From positions 1 through 42,946 of IMG/VR virus record IMGVR_UViG_3300026116_000061: a stretch of DNA of 42,946 nucleotides; one strand, written 5' to 3'. The stretch's first letter is position 1; each line of letters starts with the position of its first letter. This DNA comes from a virus. Made by a program: the position numbers and the translations under genes. The notes beneath the pieces were generated by a model that was given only the letters and a program-made list of their open reading frames with translations, made no database searches and was not told where the DNA came from. This document shows, piece by piece, positions 26,520 to 40,490 of this stretch.

Positions 26520-26704
26520 ATTGGTTGATCTCGATCTTTAAGCCAGGTCATGTTAACGTGTTGAAAATCGGGGCACGGGTACGGCTTCCAGATGGCCGTG
26601 AAGGCGTCGTGACAGGGGGCGCTGTTCACATCGATCTCGATGTCAAGCCCGGAGAGTTCCGTCTCAATTGGACGACCGGGCTCACAAAAGTGAAGGTTCT
26701 CTAA
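26516..26704 (+). CDS. 62-aa small beta-barrel-like protein
   Basis: The product has a hydrophobic N-terminus (MNWLISIFKPG), then RVRLPDGREGVVTGGAVHID, a Gly turn pattern seen in SH3-like barrels. This is a structural guess. It is coupled to the previous gene by ATGA. Confidence 0.6.
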   Translation: MNWLISIFKPGHVNVLKIGARVRLPDGREGVVTGGAVHIDLDVKPGEFRLNWTTGLTKVKVL

Positions 26705-26706
26705 CC

Positions 26707-27123
26707 ATGAAGGTTTTTGTCTATGGTACACTCAAGAAAGGGTTTCACAACCATCGTTGTCTTGAAGGGGCGGTTTATTCAGGGCAGGGAGTTCTCGCCA
26801 CGCCGTTCCGGATGTTCGATACGGGTGGCTTCCCGGTTATCTTACCGGCCACAGAAAATAAGCCGGGTTACTTTCCTACCGGGGAAATATACGAGCTTCC
26901 GGCAGGGCGCGAGGGGGAATTGATCCTCGCTCGGCTTGATCGTCTCGAAGGTGAAGGGATGATGTACCATCGTCGGCAGTTCCAGACTATGGATGGCGAG
27001 GTCGTCTCCGTGTATATCGGAGATGCTCAGTGCTGGCGTCGATTGGACAATCAAGCCCATCTTGGCCCGCAGATCAAAGTCGATGAACTCGGCGAGACTG
27101 TATCATATGTGAGGGCAGCATGA
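26707..27123 (+). CDS. Gamma-glutamylcyclotransferase-like protein
   Basis: The 138-aa protein has the family signature FVYGTLKKG (residues 4-12) as substrate loop, GFPVILP (41-47) and the catalytic Glu in DRLEGEGMMYHRR (Glu81 is the likely base). Length is typical of AIG2/GGCT enzymes, which release 5-oxoproline from gamma-glutamyl amines and peptides. It lies at the head of an operon that contains two glutamine amidotransferases and three ligases. It may therefore remove or cyclise gamma-glutamyl groups in that pathway. The start has no alternative. It overlaps the next gene as ATGA. Confidence 0.88.
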   Translation: MKVFVYGTLKKGFHNHRCLEGAVYSGQGVLATPFRMFDTGGFPVILPATENKPGYFPTGEIYELPAGREGELILARLDRLEGEGMMYHRRQFQTMDGEVVSVYIGDAQCWRRLDNQAHLGPQIKVDELGETVSYVRAA

Positions 27124-27308
27124 GATGCTATGTCACACATAAGCCTTGCACATGCGATCTCGATGACGTGTGTGCGAATGGTTGTTACCATGACGCTGAG
27201 AAGATAGACCTGTCTGATCCAGAGCTTCCTGATCCGTTTCGTGCAGGCGAAATTTCCTCAGATCACCACTTATTCTACTTGAATGGAATTGATCGGGGAA
27301 CACCATGA
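27120..27308 (+). CDS. 62-aa Cys-rich small protein
   Basis: The product begins MRCYVTHKPCTCDLDDVCAN followed by GCYHDAE. Five Cys residues in 22 positions with His suggest metal binding. The C-terminal half is acidic. Neighbouring genes overlap by ATGA on both sides. No family is recognised. Confidence 0.65.
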   Translation: MRCYVTHKPCTCDLDDVCANGCYHDAEKIDLSDPELPDPFRAGEISSDHHLFYLNGIDRGTP

Positions 27309-27478
27309 ACCCATACATTTTGCGTCGCAGAATGATTTGCTTTCATAAATGGGTAAGATGCTGGCACAGGATAGTTGACGCGCCGATTGCCGGACCGGAC
27401 CCCTACTGCGAGGCGTTTTATTATTGCTTAAAATGCCGCACCACCGCGCTCTCTCAAAAGGATCGAAAATCGCGATGA
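27305..27478 (+). CDS. 57-aa Cys/Arg-rich small protein
   Basis: The ATG at 27305 overlaps the previous stop. The product MNPYILRRRMICFHKWVRCW continues with HRIVDAP and PYCEAFYYCLKCRTTALS. The CLKC knuckle with upstream Cys could hold one zinc. Basic N-terminus. Its stop overlaps the next start as ATGA. Confidence 0.55.
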   Translation: MNPYILRRRMICFHKWVRCWHRIVDAPIAGPDPYCEAFYYCLKCRTTALSQKDRKSR

Positions 27479-27711
27479 CGATACATGATGAAATCCAGTC
27501 GCTTAAACGCCAGATGAACGCTCTGGAGAAGCGTACTGCACCCCGAATGGAGTACGCCCTCGTTGTCTACTACGGACAGCCAATGGAAGCCCAAGACCTG
27601 ATGAACCGCAAAGCTGATGAGGGTTGGACGGTGGTCAGTGTCTCGGCGCAAAACGGCCCTGTTACTTCAAATGGGCACTACACCATCACACTGGCGAGGC
27701 CACGATCATGA
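27475..27711 (+). CDS. 78-aa protein with short coiled coil and DUF4177-like end
   Basis: The ATG at 27475 has AAAAGGA upstream. The N-terminal helix DEIQSLKRQMNALEKR is a probable short coiled coil. The C-terminal part ALVVYYGQPMEAQDLMNRKA, then DEGWTVVSVSAQNG and YTITLARP, has the strand-helix-strand pattern of DUF4177-type proteins. The resemblance is general. Function unknown. Confidence 0.62.
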   Translation: MTIHDEIQSLKRQMNALEKRTAPRMEYALVVYYGQPMEAQDLMNRKADEGWTVVSVSAQNGPVTSNGHYTITLARPRS

Positions 27712-27983
27712 CCATTGCAACCCGGCTGGCGCTGGAAATGATGCTTGAAGCATTCGACGCGCCGTCATGTGAAACAGCCACAACTAACCGAGCGATAACA
27801 GCGGCTCGTAAAGCTCTCCGCGCCATACCGCAAGGGCCGGTGGCGTGGCAGCGCCGTCGAACAGATCGACACGGTAAATGGCAGGATTGGGTTGAATGTT
27901 CAGCCGATCCTCAAGATCAGCAGCGGTATCGTAACGCAGGTTACGAAATTCGTCCGCTCTACGCGGCAGCGGAGGCGATATGA
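27708..27983 (+). CDS. 91-aa unknown protein
   Basis: ATGA-coupled to both neighbours. The N-terminal half is helical (ATRLALEMMLEAFDAPSCET, then RAITAARKALRAI). The C-terminal part QWRRRTDRHGKWQDWVECSA-like segment (residues 47-70) and YEIRPLYAA end look like small phage proteins that carry a W-x3-C strand. No named domain. Confidence 0.6.
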   Translation: MTIATRLALEMMLEAFDAPSCETATTNRAITAARKALRAIPQGPVAWQRRRTDRHGKWQDWVECSADPQDQQRYRNAGYEIRPLYAAAEAI

Positions 27984-28789
27984 TCGCAGCAAAATTCACC
28001 GATGAAATCGGCGAGGAAATAGCCGCGTTGATGCGGGAGCAAGTCAAAGCTACGCATTGTGCGGGTAGTGTCCTCTTCGATCAACCGGAACATCCGAAAG
28101 GATGGAGTTTCAAGGGGGAGGTTTGTTACAGGCCGGTTTCCGAACATCTTGCGTACCAAAAGAAACACCCGGATCATTTCGGGATTTTCTACGGAGGGTA
28201 TGTTCCTATCGGTGAGGGGACTGGGGTAAACTGGCCGTGTGATTGGGAAAGGCCTGAGGCAAAAGAATGGCTAGAGGCAATCCTTGATCCGGAAGGTATT
28301 TTCAAAGGTGTTCTTCCGTATCTCTGGAAAACTGCACCCGACGATATCCTTCGTGATCATGGCTTTGTCTACAAGAATGTCCTAGATAAAAATTGCAATG
28401 CTGGTCTTCTCTGGACGTTCATGCAGGCATCAAGGTTGATGTTCGAGAACCGAGGCCGAATGAAGTCCTTCATCGCTGCTCGAAAGGAACTACCATTACG
28501 GACGGCTACCGTCGTTGCGCTTACTATTCAGGAATTTAGTGAAGGGCTCTGGGGTAACGTAATGGTAGTCCACGGAGAACCTTTCGGCACGCAAGGTTTT
28601 AGAAAGGCTGGCTATGCTCTCGCTGGAAAGCTTACACCGGTTTCTAGGCACTCACCGGGGCGATCCGCCGATTGTTTCGGAGGCGCGACGCCCATCGACT
28701 ACCGACTTGAAACTCAACGAAAATCTCTCCGAGAGTGGGTCACTCTTTTTGAAAAGGCAGCACAGGATGGTAAACACGTCGAAGTTTAA
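27980..28789 (+). CDS. Unknown 269-aa protein of the amide-ligase cluster
   Basis: The protein starts MIAAKFTDEIGEEIAALMRE. It is a soluble, globular-looking sequence with strands and helices throughout, including GFVYKNVLDKNCNAGLLW and LRTATVVALTIQEFSEGLWG. No catalytic signature is recognised. It overlaps the class I amidotransferase gene by 23 bases and the preceding gene by four, so it belongs to the same operon. It may be an enzyme or partner of the pathway. The name is left open on purpose. Confidence 0.78.
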   Translation: MIAAKFTDEIGEEIAALMREQVKATHCAGSVLFDQPEHPKGWSFKGEVCYRPVSEHLAYQKKHPDHFGIFYGGYVPIGEGTGVNWPCDWERPEAKEWLEAILDPEGIFKGVLPYLWKTAPDDILRDHGFVYKNVLDKNCNAGLLWTFMQASRLMFENRGRMKSFIAARKELPLRTATVVALTIQEFSEGLWGNVMVVHGEPFGTQGFRKAGYALAGKLTPVSRHSPGRSADCFGGATPIDYRLETQRKSLREWVTLFEKAAQDGKHVEV

Positions 28790-29447
28790 GGTCTTCGTCA
28801 TCGGGCGTAATCACGGGGTAGAGCGGCTGTTCTATGCTCGTGGGTACGACCCCGCTGATAGCATCAAGAAAGCGGATGTGGTTGTATGGACCGGCGGAAG
28901 TGATGTATCCCCGGAACTGTACAACGAGCCGAAGCATCCGTTGACGTGCGTCTACCCCGCACGAGACAAGTGGGAAAAGGCTGCCTTCGAGGTTGCTAAC
29001 GATGGCAAGAAACTCCTCGTTGGTATTTGTAGAGGGGCGCAGTTCCTTAACGTCATGAACGGGGGCTCACTCTGGCAAGACGTGAATAATCATGCCATTC
29101 GTGGCGAGCATCCGATGACCTACATCAAAGGCTTAGCCGCAGATGGGATGACGCGTGAACGGATCGTCATGGTGAACTCGACGCACCATCAGCAAATGAT
29201 CCCTCGGCTCCAAGCTCCGGCGTTCATCTGGGGCAAGGCAGGCGAGAGCACAAGGAAGATCGCGGGCAATCGACTGAATGGAGGTAAAGGGGATTACTTC
29301 AAACTGATCCCATCGCCCGGCCATTCGACTGATGCGGAAATCGTCTACTACCCGAAGACGAGAAGTCTTTGTTTTCAACCTCATCCTGAATACAACAGCA
29401 GGTCTACTCAGGATGTTTTCTGGGACTGCATGGAAAGGGCAGCTTAA
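28767..29447 (+). CDS. Class I glutamine amidotransferase / gamma-glutamyl hydrolase-like (peptidase C26 type)
   Basis: I choose the ATG at 28767, giving 226 aa; the open frame extends further upstream without a ribosome site. VWTGGSDVSPELY (40-52) is the oxyanion-side strand of this fold. GICRGAQFLNVMNGG (86-100) carries the nucleophile Cys88 in a nucleophile elbow. FQPHPEY holds His206 and Glu208 of the triad. This is the full catalytic set of class I amidotransferases and C26 gamma-glutamyl hydrolases. It is not fused to a synthetase. It lies next to the class II enzyme, with stop and ATG adjacent. It probably hydrolyses gamma-glutamyl bonds or supplies ammonia. Confidence 0.88.
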   Translation: MVNTSKFKVFVIGRNHGVERLFYARGYDPADSIKKADVVVWTGGSDVSPELYNEPKHPLTCVYPARDKWEKAAFEVANDGKKLLVGICRGAQFLNVMNGGSLWQDVNNHAIRGEHPMTYIKGLAADGMTRERIVMVNSTHHQQMIPRLQAPAFIWGKAGESTRKIAGNRLNGGKGDYFKLIPSPGHSTDAEIVYYPKTRSLCFQPHPEYNSRSTQDVFWDCMERAA

Positions 29448-30836
29448 ATGTGTGGTTTGTCAGGTGTTCTCTCGAACCGACTGAATGGTTCCGAAGAGGG
29501 CTTGTTTCGTGATCTTCTGAATATCTCCTCCCTTCGGGGGTTTCAAGGCAGCGGGGTGATGGTGCATTCGAAGCCAGCCATCCTCTACCCGCCGAAGAGA
29601 CCCGGTGTAGTCAGGGTGATCCGTAGTCGTTTTGTCTCCGGCGCATTGGCTTATTCAGATGAGCTGGATGAAGCGCTCAAGGGGGATAACACGGCGATCA
29701 TCGGCCATGCTCGTTGGCCCACGAAGGGTGGTACGGAAGACAAGTCGATCCATCCACATCGGCACGGCCATATCATCGGGGTCCACAACGGGACGCTGTA
29801 TAAGGTCGCCGGGCAGGACTTGAAAGACGGTGAGAACGACAGCAGTCAATTCTTCAAGGCGGTGTCAGAGGTCGGTATCACGGAGGCAATCAAAGATACT
29901 CGTGGTGCGTATGCCTTCGTCTGGATCGACGAGAGAGAACAGACTTTGAACTTCCTCCGCAACTATCAGCGGACACTGTACTTCAAGAACGTCGGGTACA
30001 ATAAACACATCCAGACTTTGTACTGGGCGTCAGAACAATCCATGCTCGATTTCATCTTCGAGCGGTCGTATCGTGGGACGAATACATGGGACACATATAT
30101 GCCCGTGGATACTCTCATCAAATACCCGCTTCAACCCGGCCATCGGATCGTTCCAGTCGAAGTAGTGAAGGACTTCAAACCAATCCCTTTTGTGTACAAG
30201 CCGACCCCGACGGCGGATACGGATACGGTGTCTGGTGCTAGGGCTTGGCGAGGAAGAGAATACACAGGACGGTTCTCTGATCCTGATTTGATTTTCAACC
30301 CTGTCACAAATCGCATGGAACCCGCGTGTTCTGTCCCGCTGTTGCCACCACCTGCTCTGTCAAAGAAAGAGGAACGTCGAGCGAAGGCGATAGAGAGGGG
30401 CCTCCAAAAAGCCCGTGAACGTCAGAACATACAGGAGGCCGCCGCGAAAGCGAGCGGTACATTTCGCGAAGAACCTCGCGGTGAGTCTGTTGACGAGACG
30501 ACGGAAACGGAGATTGAGGCAAATACCCCTCCTCCGACGAGGTACAACCACAATCACCGAGGAATAGATGATCTCCCGTGGACACACAACCACGGAGGCC
30601 ACAGGCTGAATGATACCGTTCAAGACTTGTTCCCAGATCGTCAACGGTGGGCTCGTGGGTACTACGGGAAATCGTGCTCGTGGTGCGGAGAAGTGGCAAA
30701 GGCCGGTGATAGAGTAGTACCCGTCGGAAGCGATCTCGGCGGTAGTGATGATTTCGTATGCTTGGACTGCTCGAAGTACGATGGCTGCAAAGAGTGGCTC
30801 GACGGCAAAACCCCTGTAACTGTGACAATGGATTGA
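29448..30836 (+). CDS. Class II (Ntn) glutamine amidotransferase with C-terminal zinc-finger-like domain
   Basis: The 462-aa protein starts MCGLSGVLS, so Cys2 becomes the N-terminal nucleophile after removal of Met, as in asparagine synthetase and PurF. GHARWPTKGG and GVHNGTL are the typical substrate-binding segments. DSSQFF follows. The glutaminase part covers about residues 1-250. No synthetase domain follows. Instead there is a charged linker (about 290-385) and a Cys-rich end (CSWCGE near 410 and CLDCSKYDGC near 440), probably a zinc ribbon. It should release ammonia from glutamine for, or carry amide nitrogen to, the ligases encoded behind it. It follows the C26-like gene directly. Confidence 0.9.
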   Translation: MCGLSGVLSNRLNGSEEGLFRDLLNISSLRGFQGSGVMVHSKPAILYPPKRPGVVRVIRSRFVSGALAYSDELDEALKGDNTAIIGHARWPTKGGTEDKSIHPHRHGHIIGVHNGTLYKVAGQDLKDGENDSSQFFKAVSEVGITEAIKDTRGAYAFVWIDEREQTLNFLRNYQRTLYFKNVGYNKHIQTLYWASEQSMLDFIFERSYRGTNTWDTYMPVDTLIKYPLQPGHRIVPVEVVKDFKPIPFVYKPTPTADTDTVSGARAWRGREYTGRFSDPDLIFNPVTNRMEPACSVPLLPPPALSKKEERRAKAIERGLQKARERQNIQEAAAKASGTFREEPRGESVDETTETEIEANTPPPTRYNHNHRGIDDLPWTHNHGGHRLNDTVQDLFPDRQRWARGYYGKSCSWCGEVAKAGDRVVPVGSDLGGSDDFVCLDCSKYDGCKEWLDGKTPVTVTMD

Positions 30837-30840
30837 GAAC

Positions 30841-31650
30841 ATGATCCGCATTGGTGCTGACCCTGAATTCTTCGTTCGCCAGAATAACCAGTTTATCTCT
30901 GGCCATGTCTTCAAATGTGGGACGAAAGAAGCCCCACTGAAAACAGCGCATGGTTTTGTCCAAGTGGACGGGCTTGCGCTGGAGGCAAATGTCCGGCCGA
31001 GTTCTACAAAAGAAGAATTTATCCAGAATGTTCAAGGGGTTATCGAAGACCTGAACCAAATCGTTGCCAAGAAACAGTGCATCATCGTCGCCAAACCGAC
31101 GGCCCCGTTCAGCAAAAAATACCTCGCCAAGCTCCCGAGGTATGTCTCCAACCTAGGTTGTAACCCCGATTACAACGCTTATACCGGAGGCATGAACGAC
31201 ACTCCTGATCGTGAACTCCCATTCAGAACCGGTGCCGGTCATATCCATATCGGTTGGACGGAAGGCCAAGATACCAGCGATATGGAGCATATCGAGAAGT
31301 GCATTCTTCTCGTGAAAACACTGGACTATTTCGTCGGGTTACGGACACTGAAATACGACACGGACGCACAGCGTCGGGAATTGTACGGCTGTGCTGGCGC
31401 GTTCCGGCCGAAGTCGTACGGCGTGGAGTACCGTGTTCCGTCGTCAGCGTGGTGTACTTCCCCTGAGCTTATGGGAATGATCTTCGATGCAACGATGGCT
31501 GCGGTGGACTACGCTCAGGACGGTGATATCAACAAGAAGTTTGATAACTTCGCACAAGTCGCCATCGACAAGAACATGACCGAATGGGATGAAATCAATC
31601 CCGAGGTCGCGGCTGAGATCAAGTACGAGGGTGCCAATGCGTCCGCATAG
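30841..31650 (+). CDS. phiEco32-type amidoligase (COOH-NH2 ligase, GS-like fold)
   Basis: The 269-aa protein has the family pattern: IGADPEFF (4-11), QVDGLALEANV (41-51, Glu48 likely metal ligand), GAGHIHIGW (about 124-132) and YGVEYRVPSSAW. These match the glutamine-synthetase-like amidoligases first seen in phage phiEco32 and relatives. They are predicted to join a carboxyl group to an amine with ATP. Substrates are unknown. It lies four bases behind the class II amidotransferase and overlaps the next gene by 14 bases. Confidence 0.88.
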   Translation: MIRIGADPEFFVRQNNQFISGHVFKCGTKEAPLKTAHGFVQVDGLALEANVRPSSTKEEFIQNVQGVIEDLNQIVAKKQCIIVAKPTAPFSKKYLAKLPRYVSNLGCNPDYNAYTGGMNDTPDRELPFRTGAGHIHIGWTEGQDTSDMEHIEKCILLVKTLDYFVGLRTLKYDTDAQRRELYGCAGAFRPKSYGVEYRVPSSAWCTSPELMGMIFDATMAAVDYAQDGDINKKFDNFAQVAIDKNMTEWDEINPEVAAEIKYEGANASA

Positions 31651-32638
31651 AAATCCGGCTGGCGATCTTATCCGGATCGCAAGGAACCAACTCTATCTCG
31701 ATGCAGTAATGGGGAACGTTCTCCAAGAAAATTGGCCCACTGATGTTGGCTTCGACGCTCGCGCCGATCTCAGTGAGTTGGAAAATTGGCCCCCCGATCA
31801 ACCTAACGATTGGGCTCTCGGATTGGATCGATTTCCACCAATGTGGTCTGGTGGGCTCCAACTTCCTATGACGAGAGCTTTTCGATTAGCGGGGGATGAG
31901 GGGGCTCCGCCTAGAGCTGCCCGAGACCAGCAAGAAATGATTATGGCTTTCAATAAGTGGAAAGCCCTAGACTTGAAGAAACTGAAACAGGGTGACCCGA
32001 TTATCCGGGATGTTTCCCTACCTCCGTTTCGTGTGGCCTACGATACCCATGAGCAGATCAACACTAAGCTGAACAATACCGTTATCATGATAAAAGACAA
32101 TCCGTTTTATGTACGGATGGTTTATGATCTTGGTGACGGTCAATTCGGTCTGTGTGTCTCTGACAGAGAGGGGACTAATTACGGCATTTCTTACGCTGAC
32201 GTAGCTGATTGCCGCCCGATTGCTCCGGGGTATGTCACTAGGAACAGTGCAGTCTTCTGGCTGTATCGGGGACCGGAGAGGCAGAACCAACAAGGCATGA
32301 ACCATCGGAATACATTCATCCGTGGTGTTAATCAACAGCAACATTCCGGGGCGCGGTATGACTTCCTTCTCGACGCCTTATCAAGCCGGAAGGATATTCC
32401 ATATGAACCGGCACTAGGAAAGATGATCGAGAATGAAGCTGTGGGTACGCTCCGATTGAGTAACAACATAGCGTTGTTCCAGTCTGGAAAGAAAGGGGCA
32501 CCGATAGGTGTGGAATACTGCGGCAGAAACTTCGGGCTTTTGATTGACACTACGGTAAAAGTTCTCGATGAGCATGATCTTCGCCCGTCGTGGATACACA
32601 AAGATTTAGCGGCGGTTAACCTTCGTGTGAGGGGATGA
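31637..32638 (+). CDS. Unknown 333-aa protein between two amidoligase genes
   Basis: I set the start at ATG 31637; an in-frame upstream ATG would add 16 residues overlapping the ligase. The product MRPHRNPAGDLIRIARNQLY has a hydrophilic N-terminal third with VGFDARADLSELENWPPDQP and a beta-rich second part (RVAYDTHEQINTKLNNTVIM, then VKVLDEHDLRPSWIHKDL). No catalytic signature, signal peptide or membrane span is seen. It could be the protein substrate, a carrier or a partner of the ligases. It overlaps the next gene by four bases (ATGA). Confidence 0.75.
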   Translation: MRPHRNPAGDLIRIARNQLYLDAVMGNVLQENWPTDVGFDARADLSELENWPPDQPNDWALGLDRFPPMWSGGLQLPMTRAFRLAGDEGAPPRAARDQQEMIMAFNKWKALDLKKLKQGDPIIRDVSLPPFRVAYDTHEQINTKLNNTVIMIKDNPFYVRMVYDLGDGQFGLCVSDREGTNYGISYADVADCRPIAPGYVTRNSAVFWLYRGPERQNQQGMNHRNTFIRGVNQQQHSGARYDFLLDALSSRKDIPYEPALGKMIENEAVGTLRLSNNIALFQSGKKGAPIGVEYCGRNFGLLIDTTVKVLDEHDLRPSWIHKDLAAVNLRVRG

Positions 32639-33879
32639 TGTTTTCAGAAGCGATTAACAAAACGGTCAAAGAGACCTTTAATCAACGTTCGGTTAAAGGT
32701 GACTTCGGCGTTGAGATCGAAACGGAAGGAAGAAATCTTCCACCCGGCAAGATCACTAGTGATTTCTCCGGTCACGAGGATGGCAGCTTGCGGCAAGGTA
32801 TGGAGTACGTTTCCATTCCGTTGCAGAAGAAGAATGTCTTCTCGGCCGTCAACAGTCTGAGGGAGCGATTGGAGAAAGCTGGTGCAGTGCTCAAGCCGAC
32901 TTACCGGTCGAGTACACATATCCACCACAACTTCATTGATAACAAATGGAGTGACGTTCTTGGTGCAGTAATCGGGTGGACAATAATCGAACCGGTTATT
33001 CTAGATAGTCTGCCGCATAGGAATGGCAGTCTTTTCTGTATGCCGTCTTTCGATACAGGCGATGCTGTTCTAGCGATAGACCACTTGTGTTCGTCACTTG
33101 CTCGCGGGTCGGTGACGTATGAATGGAACTACCGTGGGAAATATTCATCACAAAATCTCCTCCGGTTATCTGATCTTGGCACCATTGAATACCGTGTCTT
33201 TCCGACGAGTGTCGATGGTGAAGAGATCGACAAGTGGTGTGGATGGATCGCCAACATCAAAGATTATGCGGAGAAGGCCGAGGACAAGACGTATCTGTCC
33301 TTGGTTGAATACGCTGAACAGAACCCGTTCGATTTCTGCGGGAGTGTGTGCAATGGCAAACCTCCGGTTGAAGATAGGAAAATTCCGGGGTTGATCGACT
33401 TCGGGGCGAGACATGCGTATGAACTTGCTCGGGTTATCGCCGATCACATGAAGCGTCCAGCGCCGAAAGAGGAAGAAAAACCAAAGAAAAAACTACACCA
33501 GTTTAACGTTCTTGATGATGTTGTCCAGATGCGCGCCGATCCCGTACAATTTGCCCGCTGGATCGTTCAGCCAGTTCACCCCGCTCAAGCCAATGATCTA
33601 GCCGGTGCTCAGCTCGGTGCCAACCCGCTATTGCGAGAAGACGTACCAGCACCGGTGCCTGTTGTAGAACGAGAAGAAATTCCGGTGCCACGCGGAAACC
33701 CCCAGATTGCTCGGGTCCGTGAGCGTATCGCTTATTACCAACGTCGTGTTGCTGAGGCGGAAGAACACGTCCAAGCGCAACGACCGGGGTGGAGGAGGCG
33801 GTTGATAAGCCGCAAGAAGTTTCTGGAGAATTTTCAGCGAGAACATGCAAGACTTCTTTTAGAGGAGAGGAACCGTTGA
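32635..33879 (+). CDS. Second amidoligase (Amidoligase_2-like), with basic C-terminal extension
   Basis: The 414-aa protein has a GS-like amidoligase part: FGVEIETEG (24-32, Glu27 and Glu29 as metal ligands), HEDGSLRQGMEYVS (about 46-60), STHIHHNF (92-99) and GTIEYRVFP (about 182-190). The C-terminal third (from about 280) is Lys/Pro-rich and then helical and basic, ending with LLLEERNR. It is not closely similar to the amidoligase at 30841, so the two probably use different substrates. Its stop is overlapped by the TTG start of the ATP-grasp gene. Confidence 0.86.
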   Translation: MMFSEAINKTVKETFNQRSVKGDFGVEIETEGRNLPPGKITSDFSGHEDGSLRQGMEYVSIPLQKKNVFSAVNSLRERLEKAGAVLKPTYRSSTHIHHNFIDNKWSDVLGAVIGWTIIEPVILDSLPHRNGSLFCMPSFDTGDAVLAIDHLCSSLARGSVTYEWNYRGKYSSQNLLRLSDLGTIEYRVFPTSVDGEEIDKWCGWIANIKDYAEKAEDKTYLSLVEYAEQNPFDFCGSVCNGKPPVEDRKIPGLIDFGARHAYELARVIADHMKRPAPKEEEKPKKKLHQFNVLDDVVQMRADPVQFARWIVQPVHPAQANDLAGAQLGANPLLREDVPAPVPVVEREEIPVPRGNPQIARVRERIAYYQRRVAEAEEHVQAQRPGWRRRLISRKKFLENFQREHARLLLEERNR

Positions 33880-34664
33880 TTTTCATTAACCCATATAAGA
33901 AGGGCAGTTCGGGGGCGAGAAGCCTTCGTTCTGCCCTAGTGGCTAAGGGGCATCGGACTTTAATCGGTCAGAAAGCGCCCCTGTCACAACGCGCGCTGGT
34001 CATCAACTGGGGCAACTCAGAGTTCACATTCGATCCCCTACCTTACAAAAACATCGTCAACCTACCACCGTTGGTTGGAGTAATGACCAATAAGCTTCGG
34101 TTCTTCCGGCATGTCGGCCACTCTAGGATGGTCCCAGAATGGTCTACGGAGGCTCCTGAGGCGTGTAAATGGGGCGGCAGGGTGGTGGTACGGCACAAAC
34201 TGGAAGGCTCTGGAGGGGCTGGAATAGAGATCGTGGAAGACGGTAACCCGCTACCGAAAGCACCGCTATACGTGAAATACGAGAATAAGACCCATGAATT
34301 CCGTATCCATATGGCTAGGGGGCTGCATCCCGGTGATCCATTTAATCCTATCCTCGTGCAGCGTAAGATATTCCAGAAGCGTCCGGACATGGAAAAGCCG
34401 AAGGATTGGGCTGTCAGAAACCACGACAATGGTTTCATCTTTGTTCGGGAAAGCGATTATCCGACGCCGGAGGCAGTTCTATCTCTTGCGACGAACTTCA
34501 TGAATGAGCACTTCTCCCGGCTTCATTTCGCCGCACTGGATATCGTGTGGCACGACAAGCGCAAGCAGGGATTTGTTCTCGAAGGCAATACAGCACCGGG
34601 CCTCGAAGGGAACACTATCGAGGTTTATAGTAATTATTTCAGTGGGTTAGCATCTACTGCATAA
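33876..34664 (+). CDS. ATP-grasp ligase
   Basis: I place the start at TTG 33876, which follows GAGGAGAGG at good distance and overlaps the previous stop as TTGA; 262 aa. The ATP-grasp core is seen as VVVRHKLEGSGGAGIEIVE (nucleotide-binding loop), APLYVKYENKTHEFRIHM (adenine-side strand and Lys) and GFVLEGNTAPGLEGNTIEVY (metal-binding Glu and Asn near the end). RimK-type ligases have this arrangement. It would couple a carboxylate to an amine, as do the amidoligases. It is the last gene before the replication promoter. Confidence 0.86.
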   Translation: MIFINPYKKGSSGARSLRSALVAKGHRTLIGQKAPLSQRALVINWGNSEFTFDPLPYKNIVNLPPLVGVMTNKLRFFRHVGHSRMVPEWSTEAPEACKWGGRVVVRHKLEGSGGAGIEIVEDGNPLPKAPLYVKYENKTHEFRIHMARGLHPGDPFNPILVQRKIFQKRPDMEKPKDWAVRNHDNGFIFVRESDYPTPEAVLSLATNFMNEHFSRLHFAALDIVWHDKRKQGFVLEGNTAPGLEGNTIEVYSNYFSGLASTA

Positions 34665-34834: not shown

Positions 34835-35017
34835 ATGTTACGTTGTGCTATCTGTGATTATACACCAGAAGAGGGCTCAGATTACGCCGATCTAGCGCCC
34901 GGTCGTTTCAAGGTCAAACCTCATGGCCATGATGGCGAATACCTCTGTGATGAATGCGCCGCCCACATCGACGATGCACTAGCTGAGTTCATCGACGAAG
35001 ATGAAACCGAGGAGTAA
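34835..35017 (+). CDS. 60-aa zinc ribbon protein
   Basis: MLRCAICDYTPEEGSD supplies CxxC, and GEYLCDECAAHIDD the second CxxC, a typical zinc ribbon, with a strongly acidic C-terminus (IDEDETEE). It is the first gene after the palindromic promoter and overlaps the primase-helicase by 17 bases. It could regulate that promoter or assist the primase. Ribosome site AAAGG precedes the ATG by a few bases. Confidence 0.78.
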   Translation: MLRCAICDYTPEEGSDYADLAPGRFKVKPHGHDGEYLCDECAAHIDDALAEFIDEDETEE

Positions 35018-36575
35018 TTCGTCTAAAATAGTCCAGAGTAAACTTCCCTGCCCATGTGGCCGGTCGTCCGATGCGTATGCCATCTATGATGATGGGCACG
35101 GGCATTGCTTCGGTCAATGCGGCGGGAAGTCCTTTCAACCACAAGAAGGAGTTGAACTCCCAGTGGATACTAGTAATCATACTTATCAATATATTACCGC
35201 ACGTGGCATTTCAGCCGCTACACGAGAGAAATTGAACATTGTAACGGAATGCTCCGCTGAAGGGGAGCCGTTGTTCGATATCGTGACCTTCCCCAATAGC
35301 ACTAAGCAAATCCGAGGGCTTAAAGACAAGTCCTTCAAGACCGCTGGCATGAACGCGTCTGAACCTACATTGATGTTCATGGACAAGTTCCCTGCCGGGT
35401 CGGCTAAGACTATCACAATCACGGAGGGCGCTTATGATGCGGCGTCGATCCATCAAGTTCTTGGGAATAACTTTCCTGCTGTATCGGTACGAAGCAGTTC
35501 GACAGCGCGAAAGGACTGTCAGTCGAACCATGCATATCTTGACAGCTTCGACAGAATTTATCTGGCTCTCGATGCGGACGAGCCCGGAAAGAAAGCTGCT
35601 CGACAGATTGCTGAGCTTTTCGATTTCAACAAGGTATTCCACGTGGATTTATCTCTCCACAAGGATGCCAACGGATTTCTGCAAGCCGGATTGGTCGATC
35701 AGCTTAGGCAGGTTTGGCACAATTCGAAGAAATATCTACCCGAAGGAATTGTGAGTTCACATGCAGACTTCGCGCAAATTCTTGAAGATGACCAAAAAAG
35801 ACCATCAATTCCTTATCCATTTGCACGTTTGCAAGAGGTTACGAAAGGTATCCGCGATGGAGAAGTCATCCTTATCACTGCTCAAGAAGGCGTTGGCAAG
35901 ACTGAATTCATTAGAGCCATCGAATATCACATCCTTACAACGACAGATGCTGCTATCGGAGCTATTCACCTTGAGGAAACTAAAGCACGTCAGCTCCAAG
36001 GCCTTGCAGGATACGATCTCAAAGCACCAGCCCACTTTGAAGGAGTCGCAAGTAACGAGGAAATCGCGGAGGCGCTGAAGCGTGTTACAAAAGGCTCGAA
36101 TGATCGGCTCCATATTTATAAGCACTTTGGCAGCGATGATCCTGACGATCTACTCAGTATGGTTCGTTTCCTCGTTACTGCTTGCGGCTGTAAATATATC
36201 TTCTTCGATCATATCACTATGGTCGTAACCGGGAAGGCAGGCGATGAAGATGAGCGCCGTGTTCTTGATTACCTTTCTACGCGGCTTGCTACTATGGCCC
36301 ATGATCTTAATTTTACTCTGTTCCTTGTTAGTCATGTCAATGATGACGGCCGTACTAGGGGCAGCCGTAACATTGGTAAGGTGGCTAACACGCGTATTGA
36401 TCTGTCGCGTAACACGTTAGAGGAAGATGAAAATGAGCGGAATAAAATGTACCTCTCCGTTCCTAAGAACCGTTACGGAGCAAGCACAGGCCCCGGAGGC
36501 GTCCTTTGGTTCGATGACGAAACCTTCACCCTCAGAGAATACCGAGAGCCTGTCGTCCGAGTTCCCGCCGCCTAA
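35001..36575 (+). CDS. T7 gp4-type primase-helicase
   Basis: The 524-aa protein has three parts in T7 order. The zinc-binding domain CPCGRSSDAYAIYDDGHGHC plus FGQC (C17, C19, C36, C40) reads the template. The TOPRIM primase part has ITEGAYDAASIHQVLG and IYLALDADEPGKKAARQIAE. The helicase part has ITAQEGVGKTEFIRA (Walker A), YIFFDHITMVV (Walker B), HVNDDGRTRGSRNIGKVANT, and the C-terminal VPKNRYGASTGPGGVLWFDD. It should unwind DNA as a hexameric ring and make primers for the polymerase encoded downstream. The start overlaps the zinc ribbon gene. Confidence 0.94.
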   Translation: MKPRSNSSKIVQSKLPCPCGRSSDAYAIYDDGHGHCFGQCGGKSFQPQEGVELPVDTSNHTYQYITARGISAATREKLNIVTECSAEGEPLFDIVTFPNSTKQIRGLKDKSFKTAGMNASEPTLMFMDKFPAGSAKTITITEGAYDAASIHQVLGNNFPAVSVRSSSTARKDCQSNHAYLDSFDRIYLALDADEPGKKAARQIAELFDFNKVFHVDLSLHKDANGFLQAGLVDQLRQVWHNSKKYLPEGIVSSHADFAQILEDDQKRPSIPYPFARLQEVTKGIRDGEVILITAQEGVGKTEFIRAIEYHILTTTDAAIGAIHLEETKARQLQGLAGYDLKAPAHFEGVASNEEIAEALKRVTKGSNDRLHIYKHFGSDDPDDLLSMVRFLVTACGCKYIFFDHITMVVTGKAGDEDERRVLDYLSTRLATMAHDLNFTLFLVSHVNDDGRTRGSRNIGKVANTRIDLSRNTLEEDENERNKMYLSVPKNRYGASTGPGGVLWFDDETFTLREYREPVVRVPAA

Positions 36576-36806: not shown

Positions 36807-37033
36807 TGTATGATCCTCCGTCTGGTTGGAAGTACGGCTTTCCAAAGGTCTATACCCCGCTACCCGGTGAAACATTAGAAGAAACCCTTCTTCGAGATGG
36901 TTATCCTCAATACGAGATCGATGCCGGGATGGCCAAGCATTGCCGGTTTCTGGGTTCAAAAGAAGAGATAATGAAAGCAGGGGTAGAGGTTATTGAAATC
37001 AGTAGTCCTGAACATAGAGGCGAACGGACTTAA
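36803..37033 (+). CDS. 76-aa conserved-looking small protein before the polymerase
   Basis: The product YGFPKVYTPLPGETLEETLL, then RDGYPQYEIDAGMAKHCRF, has a compact, motif-like appearance of small phage proteins that lie by the polymerase. It overlaps the polymerase gene by 41 bases and the preceding gene by four. No enzymatic motif is visible. Confidence 0.68.
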   Translation: MMYDPPSGWKYGFPKVYTPLPGETLEETLLRDGYPQYEIDAGMAKHCRFLGSKEEIMKAGVEVIEISSPEHRGERT

Positions 37034-38906
37034 ACCAGATAAGATTTGGTGTGTCACAGGTATCGACGTAGACACCGGAGAGGAAACGGTATTCCGAAAT
37101 GTCCATGATAATGAAGATACTAAAGTGGCTTGCCGAAGGTACATTAGTAGTTTCGGGCGTGTCATTGGCCATAATTGCATTAGGTACGATCTTCCTTCAA
37201 TTCATCGGATTGTTGGAGGCTTGGAAATGGGGTTGGAGCCCACTGCTCCTGCCGTGGTGGATACCCTCGTTGTCAGCCGCTTACTTGATTATCCTCGCAG
37301 TGGTGGGCACAGTCTCGCAGCGTGGTCAACCGTAGTAGGCGTCGAGAAGTCGATCCAGCCGCCTTGGGATGCGTTCTCAGAGGCTTTGGTCGACCACTCG
37401 CTCCAGAACTGCCGGATTACTCTGGCGCTATACAAGACGTTCCTGCCTTATCTGAATAGCGACCGTTGGCGTCGCCCAATAGAGACTGAACACCATGTTC
37501 AGATGTATCTCCAACAGATGCAGGAGAACGGTTTCTATTTAGATATTGACAAAGTAGCAGAACTGCGGTATAATATACTTGAGGAGTTAGATAAACTTGA
37601 CCGAGAAATCCTTAGAGAATTCCCTCCTAAAGTTGAACTTATCCGTGAGGTACATCCGAGAATTACGAAATTTGGAACGCTCAACAAATCTGATTTTAGA
37701 TGGTTTCGGGGGGAAGACCTTCGAGATTTCAACGGCGGACCATTCTCTCTTATTAGCTTTGAACCGTTCAATCCGGGCAGTCCAACGCAGATTGTTGAAA
37801 GGCTAAACGAATACGGTTGGAAGCCTACTGAAAAGACTAAGGGGCATCAGCTCGCCCTACGCGAGAAAAACAAAGAAAAGCTCGCCAAGCTGGAAAAGAC
37901 GGGGTTCACGGTCTCTGAGACTAACCTCGCAACTCTTCCTGATACTGCACCACCTGCGGCTAAGAAGCTCGCTCTACGGATCATGCTTGCTAGTCGCGCT
38001 CGGACACTCAAAGAGTGGATCGAGAACTTCAACCCGGAGACCCATCGGGTCCACGGTAATGTCAACGGTATCGGCGCTTGGACCGGCCGTTGTTCGCACG
38101 ACCATCCGAACACAGGGAACATCCCAGTTCCTCAACCAGTAAACGACAAATCAACGGAGATGCGTCGCCGTGCTAACTCGATTGATAAACTACTCCGCCA
38201 GTATTGGCGCGCTGCTCCTAATCGCTTTCTCGTGGGCGTGGATGCTGAGGGAATTCAGCTCAGGGTTCTCGCTCATTACATCAATGACGCCCGGTTTACA
38301 CACGCCGTAGTCTCGGGCAAAAAAGAAGATGGAACAGACCCCCATACCCTTAATAAGCTCGCCCTCGGAAGCCCTTGCAAGTCTAGAGAGGACGCAAAGA
38401 CATTTATCTATGCTTGGCTCCTCGGTGCAGGAATTGCTAAAGTCGCTCAAATTCTTGACTGCTCGCACTCAGAAGCTAAGCGAGCTGATAGCGACTTCAT
38501 CGAGTTCTATCCCGGCCTCGCATCTATCAAGCGAGACATTATACCTCGTGACGCTTCTAGAGGATACTTCGAAGGTTTTGATGGTAGATACGTGGCTATC
38601 GTTGGGGAGGATCAAGGAAGCAGAGAACATTTCACGTTAGCTGGTTATCTCCAAAACGGAGAGACAGTCATAATGAAAAGGGCGATGGAGATTTGGTATC
38701 CACGTCTCGTCGCCGAGAAGGTTCCGTTCTGGCTAGTGAACTTCGTTCATGACGAATGGCAGACGGAAGTACCTGATCGAGATATCGCAGAATATGTCGC
38801 GCAGGTTCAGAAAGACGCCATCCGTCAGGCTGGTGAGGACTTAGGACTGAGATGCCCAATGTCCGGCAGTTCGGATATTGGTTTAACATGGCATGATACA
38901 CATTAA
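36993..38906 (+). CDS. Family A DNA polymerase, T7 gp5-type, with altered exonuclease site
   Basis: The 637-aa protein aligns by eye with T7 DNA polymerase over its length. Polymerase motifs: LVGVDAEGIQLRVLAHY (motif A, D417), AKTFIYAWLLGAG (motif B, K469, Y473) and FVHDEWQ (motif C, H586-D587-E588). Exonuclease: VVLNIEANGL has Asn7 where T7 has Asp5 (Glu9 kept), GHNCIRYDLPS keeps Asp66, and HSLQNCRITLALYK has His135 and Asn139 where T7 has Tyr170 and Asp174. Proofreading is therefore likely lost. Motif A has Gln422 for the usual steric-gate Glu. The frame contains a consensus promoter at 37546-37574. The polymerase is otherwise complete. Confidence 0.94.
   Translation: MKSVVLNIEANGLKPDKIWCVTGIDVDTGEETVFRNVHDNEDTKVACRRYISSFGRVIGHNCIRYDLPSIHRIVGGLEMGLEPTAPAVVDTLVVSRLLDYPRSGGHSLAAWSTVVGVEKSIQPPWDAFSEALVDHSLQNCRITLALYKTFLPYLNSDRWRRPIETEHHVQMYLQQMQENGFYLDIDKVAELRYNILEELDKLDREILREFPPKVELIREVHPRITKFGTLNKSDFRWFRGEDLRDFNGGPFSLISFEPFNPGSPTQIVERLNEYGWKPTEKTKGHQLALREKNKEKLAKLEKTGFTVSETNLATLPDTAPPAAKKLALRIMLASRARTLKEWIENFNPETHRVHGNVNGIGAWTGRCSHDHPNTGNIPVPQPVNDKSTEMRRRANSIDKLLRQYWRAAPNRFLVGVDAEGIQLRVLAHYINDARFTHAVVSGKKEDGTDPHTLNKLALGSPCKSREDAKTFIYAWLLGAGIAKVAQILDCSHSEAKRADSDFIEFYPGLASIKRDIIPRDASRGYFEGFDGRYVAIVGEDQGSREHFTLAGYLQNGETVIMKRAMEIWYPRLVAEKVPFWLVNFVHDEWQTEVPDRDIAEYVAQVQKDAIRQAGEDLGLRCPMSGSSDIGLTWHDTH
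37546..37574 (+). promoter_or_regulatory. Consensus sigma70 promoter inside the DNA polymerase gene
   Basis: TTGACA (37546-37551), 17 bases, TATAAT (37569-37574): a perfect match. GGTATAATATACTTGAGG (37567-37584) is identical to the late promoter core on the minus strand at 22012-21995. It could start transcription near 37581 toward the ssDNA-binding and nuclease genes, inside the polymerase frame. Confidence 0.72.
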
Positions 38907-39680: not shown

Positions 39681-40490
39681 ATGAAGAAGATCGATACTTT
39701 AATCGACGATATTTACGCCCTTTTCGATAATGAAATTGACATCAAGGAAGAGGATGCCGCCGAGTTCGGAGAGACCCTCGGGAAAATGCTCGTGCGACGC
39801 CTGTCTAGCCGCCGAGAGAAACCTACTGTTCGACTTAGTAACGCTGGCACTCCTTGTAAGCGTAAGCTGTGGTATTCTGTTCGCGTCCCTCACCTTGCAG
39901 AAAAACTACCAGCTCATGCGAGAATTAAGTTCTTACTCGGAGATATTACCGAAGAACTCGTCCTCTTTCTCGCAAGACTTGCCGGGCATACAGTAGAACG
40001 AGAACAGGAGGAAGTTCATGTCGCCGGTGTGCGCGGACATATTGACGCCGTGGTTGACGGTGAGCTGGTGGACGTTAAGTCAGCTAGTCCTTTTAGCTTC
40101 GATAAGTTTAAGCAGGGCCTCACACCAGAGAACGACGGCTTCGGGTATCTTACTCAACTCGGTAGTTATCGCCATGCCCTTGGCCATCGCCGTGCTCACT
40201 TCTTACCAGTTAATAAAGTTCTTGGTACAATTCATCTAGATACTCATGACGATGACGGACGAGATTACGAGCAGATCGTATCAGAAGCTAAGCAAGTTGT
40301 ACAACTTCCGGAGCCACCTGAAAGAGGGTACGAGGATGTACCGGATGGTCAGTCAGGAAATAGAAAACTCGGAATACAGTGTTCGTACTGCGACTTCAAA
40401 GAAGTCTGTTGGCCCGGTCTCCGCACCATCCCTTACGCCAACGGCCCCCGCTACCTCACTCGGGTTGAACGAGAACCAAAGCTACGATGA
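39681..40490 (+). CDS. RecB/Cas4-like PD-(D/E)XK nuclease with iron-sulfur cysteines
   Basis: The 269-aa protein has GTPCKRKLWYS (C59), a Glu-bearing helix, GHIDAVVDGELVDVKSAS with D122 and the DVK core D131-V-K133, and a Cys cluster CSYCDFKEVC (C234, C237, C243). C59 and these three fit a 4Fe-4S cluster as in Cas4 and AddB-type nucleases. It is probably the phage exonuclease for recombination or host DNA degradation. The start at 39681 has GAGG upstream. Its stop overlaps the endonuclease VII gene as ATGA. Confidence 0.85.
   Translation: MKKIDTLIDDIYALFDNEIDIKEEDAAEFGETLGKMLVRRLSSRREKPTVRLSNAGTPCKRKLWYSVRVPHLAEKLPAHARIKFLLGDITEELVLFLARLAGHTVEREQEEVHVAGVRGHIDAVVDGELVDVKSASPFSFDKFKQGLTPENDGFGYLTQLGSYRHALGHRRAHFLPVNKVLGTIHLDTHDDDGRDYEQIVSEAKQVVQLPEPPERGYEDVPDGQSGNRKLGIQCSYCDFKEVCWPGLRTIPYANGPRYLTRVEREPKLR

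Follow-up and report, generated by a model that had tools for sequence, protein, structure and literature searches.

The polymerase gene and its surroundings

The window, by which we mean the whole stretch of viral DNA analysed here (42,946 nucleotides), carries on its plus strand at positions 36993–38906 the gene for a T7-type family A DNA polymerase, a relative of T7 gp5. The open reading frame starts with TTG and encodes 637 amino acids, and the numbering of residues in the window polymerase presumes this start at 36993. In profile searches it matched phrog_17 (DNA polymerase; E 7.5e-91, with residues 1–636 covered) and Pfam DNA_pol_A (E 8.3e-34). An AlphaFold model of the protein was obtained with a mean pLDDT of 94.4 and a pTM of 0.90. 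T7 gp5, represented throughout by record NC_001604, to which the copy in our alignments is identical, was the best match of this model in fold searches and is its closest solved structure, and the two can be aligned along their full lengths (VIA-align Z 37, rmsd 2.8 over 526 residues, with model residues 3–637 placed on T7 residues 1–704). The first-pass annotation had called a T7-type DNA polymerase at this place from the letters alone; the profile matches and the gp5-like fold agree with that call, and the reading frame and all residues it cited are correct.

The polymerase gene begins about 400 bases past the end of a primase-helicase gene (35001–36575, plus strand; phrog_239, E 1e-118), the product of which contains Toprim and DnaB_C domains. 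The polymerase motifs lie on the plus strand at 38241–38258 (motif A, with the catalytic D417), 38385–38423 (motif B, with R465, K469 and Y473) and 38748–38756 (motif C, with H586-D587-E588). Both catalytic Asp residues (D417 and D587) and the three motif B residues are therefore present, and judging from these kept motifs the polymerisation function of the enzyme is intact. Motif A also contains Q422 at the position of T7 E480 (Klenow E710) and motif B L477 at that of T7 Y530 (Klenow Y766).

Residues of the exonuclease active site

The 3′–5′ exonuclease domain comprises approximately residues 1–160 (36993–37472, plus strand) and, according to the AlphaFold model and the alignment with T7 gp5, is predicted to be folded with an incomplete active site. 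In T7, D5 binds both metals; E7 and D174 are further ligands of metal A, and D65 contacts metal B via water (PMC8867116). Aligned on this arrangement, motif I of the window polymerase has N7 (AAC, 37011–37013, plus strand as are all codons given here) in place of D5, the ligand of both metals (PMC8867116), and keeps E9 (GAG, 37017–37019), which corresponds to E7. Motif II keeps D66 (GAT, 37188–37190), which pairs with T7 D65 and is invariant in all sequences covering that position. In motif III, H135 (CAC, 37395–37397) replaces Y170 and N139 (AAC, 37407–37409) replaces D174, a ligand of metal A. Alignment and codons thus bear out the earlier reading, in which N7, H135 and N139 were substitutions and the motif II Asp was retained.

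Set against an active DEDDy 3′–5′ exonuclease, the domain has the motif I Glu and the motif II Asp and lacks the motif I Asp as well as the Tyr and Asp of motif III. Two of the four metal-binding acids are gone, namely the acid shared by the two metals and a second ligand of metal A. The first-pass annotation had named, as the outcome that would speak against it, an alignment placing other Asp residues in the catalytic positions. A column-by-column comparison of the exonuclease domain showed none, and it revealed no compensating acid gained by both the window polymerase and its nearest relative, L001, where relatives are mostly non-acidic.

Because the equivalents of D5 (both metals) and D174 (metal A) are missing, we consider the 3′–5′ exonuclease of the window polymerase to be inactive or nearly so, with a probability of roughly 85%. 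Asparagine can at times hold a metal weakly, which leaves room for residual exonuclease activity. In T7, the double change D5A/E7A lowers exonuclease activity 10^6-fold, with polymerisation kinetics comparable to those of the wild type (PMC8867116).

Loss of the metal ligands among related polymerases

Relatives were drawn from viral contigs with the polymerases of the window, L001 and L037 as queries, and 131 sequences including T7 and the window were aligned. At the columns of T7 D5, E7, D65, Y170 and D174, 113 of the 131 sequences read D/E/D/Y/D and 14 read D/E/D/R/D, and loss of metal ligands is seen in four: the window (N..H..N), L001 (N..Y..N), and the pair L031 and L037 (N..Y..K). In all four, the Asp residues of motifs I and III are both missing. 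The remaining 127 polymerases, T7 included, have the two residues, and loss of a single Asp was found in none of the 131. About 67 further sequences contained no new loss-carrier and six more Arg variants, and a scan with the window/L001 alignment yielded no additional loss-carrier. A search of the viral contigs with the window exonuclease domain alone retrieved no relative and one with the L031 domain only L031's own contig, while a search of a genome collection returned one distant relative, the polymerase of which is encoded in two ORFs. Among open-licence papers we found no published description of exonuclease loss in this clade.

L001 and the window polymerase are 66% identical in the best segment and 68% identical across the alignment, and a tree built without the exonuclease domain places L001 as the sister of the window (SH-aLRT 99). 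Their exonuclease domains share both Asn residues at 46% identity.

The motif III Tyr behaves differently from the two Asp residues. In 14 polymerases (for example L002, L004, L019 and L025) it is replaced by Arg with both Asp kept, corresponding to nine changes on the polymerase tree, and in the full alignment motif III of L045 likewise has Arg together with Asp. Since Arg variants recur with both Asp kept, the motif III Tyr is a poor marker of loss. The change of Tyr170 to His was therefore set aside as a mark of exonuclease loss, and as far as the alignment indicates it matters little for that loss.

Single or repeated loss

For the polymerase region, a topology that unites the four loss-carriers in one clade is rejected (AU p = 1e-5), and on sequence grounds L031 and L037 form a distant pair whose polymerase lineage is clearly separate from that of the window and L001. 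When the exonuclease domain was analysed alone with the trait columns removed, a single clade was not rejected (p = 0.57). Nor was it rejected with a careful exonuclease-domain tree of 55 rows (p = 0.13); this tree itself separates the two pairs. Because the exonuclease domain does not reject a single clade, a dead domain may still have been transferred between the lineages, and the Gln122 and Asn7 shared by the carriers could reflect either convergence or such a transferred domain. Swapping of exonuclease domains between phages seems to occur in this group, as suggested by L034 and L027. By its polymerase, L034 is kin to L031 and L037, yet its exonuclease domain is 80% identical to that of L027; the polymerase domains of L034 and L027 are 68% identical and group elsewhere.

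State and evolution of the exonuclease domain

It had been proposed at first pass that the sequence flanking the changed residues is well kept and that the domain as a whole has not decayed. This stands for the predicted fold, as the exonuclease domain of the AlphaFold model is mostly as confident as the remainder of the protein, and for E9, H60, N61, D66, D90 and H106, which are conserved in all four loss-carriers. It does not stand for positions 112, 122 and 124 or for the rate of change. Residues 122–124 of the window polymerase read Q-P-P (37356–37364, plus strand, as computed from the ORF start), where Q122 replaces the F or Y found in most intact relatives (T7 Y139) and P124 an Asp (T7 D141). 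Gln at position 122 occurs in all four loss-carriers and in no other sequence; position 124, mostly Asp, is Pro or Ser in the loss-carriers, and position 112 (T7 G129), mostly Gly, is Ser or Ala. Furthermore, on a fixed polymerase tree the loss branches had a ratio of exonuclease to polymerase branch lengths of 3.5, compared with 1.41 for the other branches (permutation p = 0.002), which means that relative to the polymerase the exonuclease domain evolves about 2.5 times faster on loss branches than in other lineages.

Selection could be assessed from dN/dS for L031 and L037, the only loss pair that is close enough, as the window/L001 pair is saturated at synonymous sites. The exonuclease domains of L031 and L037 gave a value of about 0.20 (0.256/1.27) and their polymerase about 0.09, compared with about 0.06 to 0.30 for the exonuclease domains of intact pairs. 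Because the value for the loss pair lies within the range of intact pairs, the active site appears to be gone while the domain is still selected; by this measure, the L031/L037 exonuclease domain is still under purifying selection.

Probable replication without polymerase proofreading and other explanations

A highly active proofreading site is a well-known trait of T7-type replicases. For the window polymerase, sequence comparison and T7 biochemistry together best support what the first-pass annotation had suggested as one of two outcomes, a replicative polymerase without proofreading. The gene would encode the replicative T7-type polymerase of the phage, an enzyme that polymerises but cannot excise its own errors, with the exonuclease domain probably retained as a scaffold or DNA-holding part, and the phage would replicate without polymerase proofreading. 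Possible reasons for the loss include the avoidance of wasteful excision such as the removal of correct nucleotides by T7 polymerase (PMC7073461), a gain of strand displacement, or a relaxed need for proofreading.

The second of these reasons can be developed further. The loss could have been selected because a polymerase that does not idle at the exonuclease site displaces strands, with lower fidelity as a side effect; this would be a reason for the loss of proofreading rather than an alternative to it, and we regard it as a rather doubtful one. Exonuclease-deficient Pol gamma is reported to enter double-stranded DNA (PMC4557304), and Pol delta is reported to gain strand displacement from loss of the exonuclease alone (PMC4417170). 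Moreover, T7 polymerase removes about 7% of correct nucleotides, which has been attributed to replication hurdles (PMC7073461), and virome PolAs without detectable exonuclease, reported in passing, show strand displacement (PMC9069017). However, the phage has its own primase-helicase, so displacement by the polymerase alone is less needed.

Proofreading could also be supplied in trans by a different nuclease, either a DnaQ-like protein of the phage or a host enzyme, so that the phage overall still proofreads. We consider this improbable. The sensitivity of the profile phrog_403 (DNA polymerase exonuclease subunit) suffices to detect the exonuclease domain inside these polymerases, and in the window, L001 (50 kb) and L031 (51 kb) the polymerase's own domain was its only match, with no separate DnaQ-like exonuclease. 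A separate copy was found in one of 41 records, the L004 genome (phrog_403 E 2.9e-90), within about 4 kb of the polymerase gene. This DnaQ-like exonuclease, located at L309 1498–2238 on the minus strand, has all DEDDy motifs (DIE, HN...D and YNIQD). Its detection indicates that the phrog_403 search works and that the group does contain genes of this kind; since L004 belongs to the same polymerase clade, the gene can enter it. The L004 polymerase, however, keeps both Asp residues and has the change of the motif III Tyr to Arg, so that the sole record with a separate copy is one without loss of these ligands. The profiles RNase_T (PF00929) and PF01612 had no match in six records; PF01612 misses the T7-type exonuclease domain itself, and hence only phrog_403 is informative. 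The window also encodes a Cas4-type PD-(D/E)XK exonuclease (39681–40490, plus strand; phrog_1990, E 7.8e-38). Roseophage SIO1, in which the proofreading residues are intact, has an annotated Cas4-type nuclease too, and this gene is therefore no special replacement. Reliance of the polymerase on a different nuclease, the other outcome considered at first pass, thus lacks support within a record that, at 42.9 kb compared with mostly 48–52 kb in relatives, is possibly incomplete and may have such a gene outside it.

To a similar degree we consider it unlikely that the domain retains a reduced exonuclease activity, in which the Asn ligands, E9 and D66 would together permit weak proofreading, possibly by means of a different metal. 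The six residues conserved in all loss-carriers and the intact predicted fold would be compatible with such activity, as would the nature of the change in the window and L001, where both Asp became Asn, the mildest change. In L031 and L037, however, which have the motif I Asn as in the window, motif III has Lys, no metal binder in such a site, and the exonuclease-specific positions 122 and 124 are altered as well. Finally, although the window comes from one metagenomic contig, errors of sequencing, assembly or reading frame were rejected together with a pseudogene origin of the polymerase, as the ORF is open for 637 codons with intact polymerase motifs in a normal replication block, and the same two Asn residues in L001, a different contig with only 46% exonuclease-domain identity, make a base-call error very unlikely and refute these readings for practical purposes.

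Comparison with known polymerases

The window polymerase resembles T7 gp5 in its whole-length fold match, its motifs A, B and C, and the primase-helicase in the same genome block, and differs from it in the missing equivalents of D5 and D174, in length (637 versus 704 amino acids) and in Gln-Leu for E480-Y530. The nearest cultured relatives are the Cobavirinae and their kin (roseophages SIO1, CRP-4, CRP-5 and CRP-13 and Lentibacter phage ICBM2), which are about 36–41% identical. These have a similar replication block and, in those fully read (SIO1, CRP-4 and CRP-13), the Gln-Leu pair, but they retain all exonuclease residues D, E, D, Y and D.

Loss of exonuclease motif I ligands with polymerisation kept is also seen in the engineered T7 D5A/E7A enzyme (PMC8867116). 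In contrast to this laboratory mutant, the change in the window is natural, affects the equivalents of D5 and D174 and is common to relatives. A natural counterpart is divPolA1 from Flavobacterium phages and uncultured phages, likewise a phage family A polymerase in which the palm catalytic residues are kept and exonuclease Asp residues are replaced (PMC11348598). In divPolA1, however, all three exonuclease Asp are replaced, whereas the window polymerase keeps D66, and the thumb is truncated (PMC11348598), against which the end-to-end alignment of our predicted model with T7 gp5 argues in the window. Moreover, divPolA1 is encoded by genomes of 155–190 kb alongside a second, 'regular' DNA polymerase (PMC11348598); no second DNA polymerase was found among the scanned ORFs of the window, a possibly incomplete record. 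A full-length T7-type enzyme that is apparently the sole replicase and has lost exonuclease ligands thus looks like a case that matches no described one exactly.

A natural and inherited loss in an apparent sole replicase, present in two polymerase lineages, makes phage life without polymerase proofreading testable, and likewise the mutation rate of such phages and the reason for which the exonuclease domain is retained. In addition, such enzymes could serve as natural exo-minus polymerases.

A Gln-Leu pair at a fidelity position

In 100 of the 131 aligned polymerases, including those of the cultured phages SIO1, CRP-4 and CRP-13, the pair corresponding to Klenow E710-Y766 is Gln-Leu (Gln-Phe in five). 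In the window it is formed by Q422 (38256–38258) and L477 (38421–38423), and L082, L083, L084 and other relatives are changed here as well, while the outgroup retains Glu-Tyr at these positions. In the closed complex, E710 and Y766 are linked by a hydrogen bond. The two residues have been called universally conserved in the family, and changes of either to Ala are mutators (PMC4882331). Because of this described conservation, the Gln-Leu pair is of interest for fidelity, and its clade-wide occurrence offers a second point for fidelity studies. Judged from the alignment, the joint change to Gln-Leu fits a loss of the E710-Y766 contact. The pair occurs both with and without exonuclease loss.

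Taken together with N7 and N139, the pair would allow for a lineage of dsDNA phages whose one polymerase has neither fidelity layer, being without proofreading and without the E710-Y766 pair by which nucleotide selection is controlled in the polymerase site. Such phages would be natural mutators or strand-displacing ones, in which exonuclease loss arose twice, or once and was then spread by exonuclease-domain swapping. We put this forward as a tentative proposal, with the odds against it.

Further observations

The polymerases of L054, L077, L079 and L150 contain in-frame inserts of 81–121 residues, which follow the site equivalent to residue 321 or 351 of the window polymerase. In L050, L071, L072, L075, L081, L152, L235 and L317, two ORFs together encode the polymerase, and the point of the split varies. 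Upstream of the primase-helicase gene, the region 26668–34664 of the window contains a run of genes for a gamma-glutamyl cyclotransferase-like protein, two glutamine amidotransferase-like proteins, a phiEco32-like COOH-NH2 ligase, an amidoligase and an S6 glutaminyl transferase-like protein. This run of glutamyl and amide-bond enzymes possibly represents a pathway that modifies a peptide, a protein or the cell wall.
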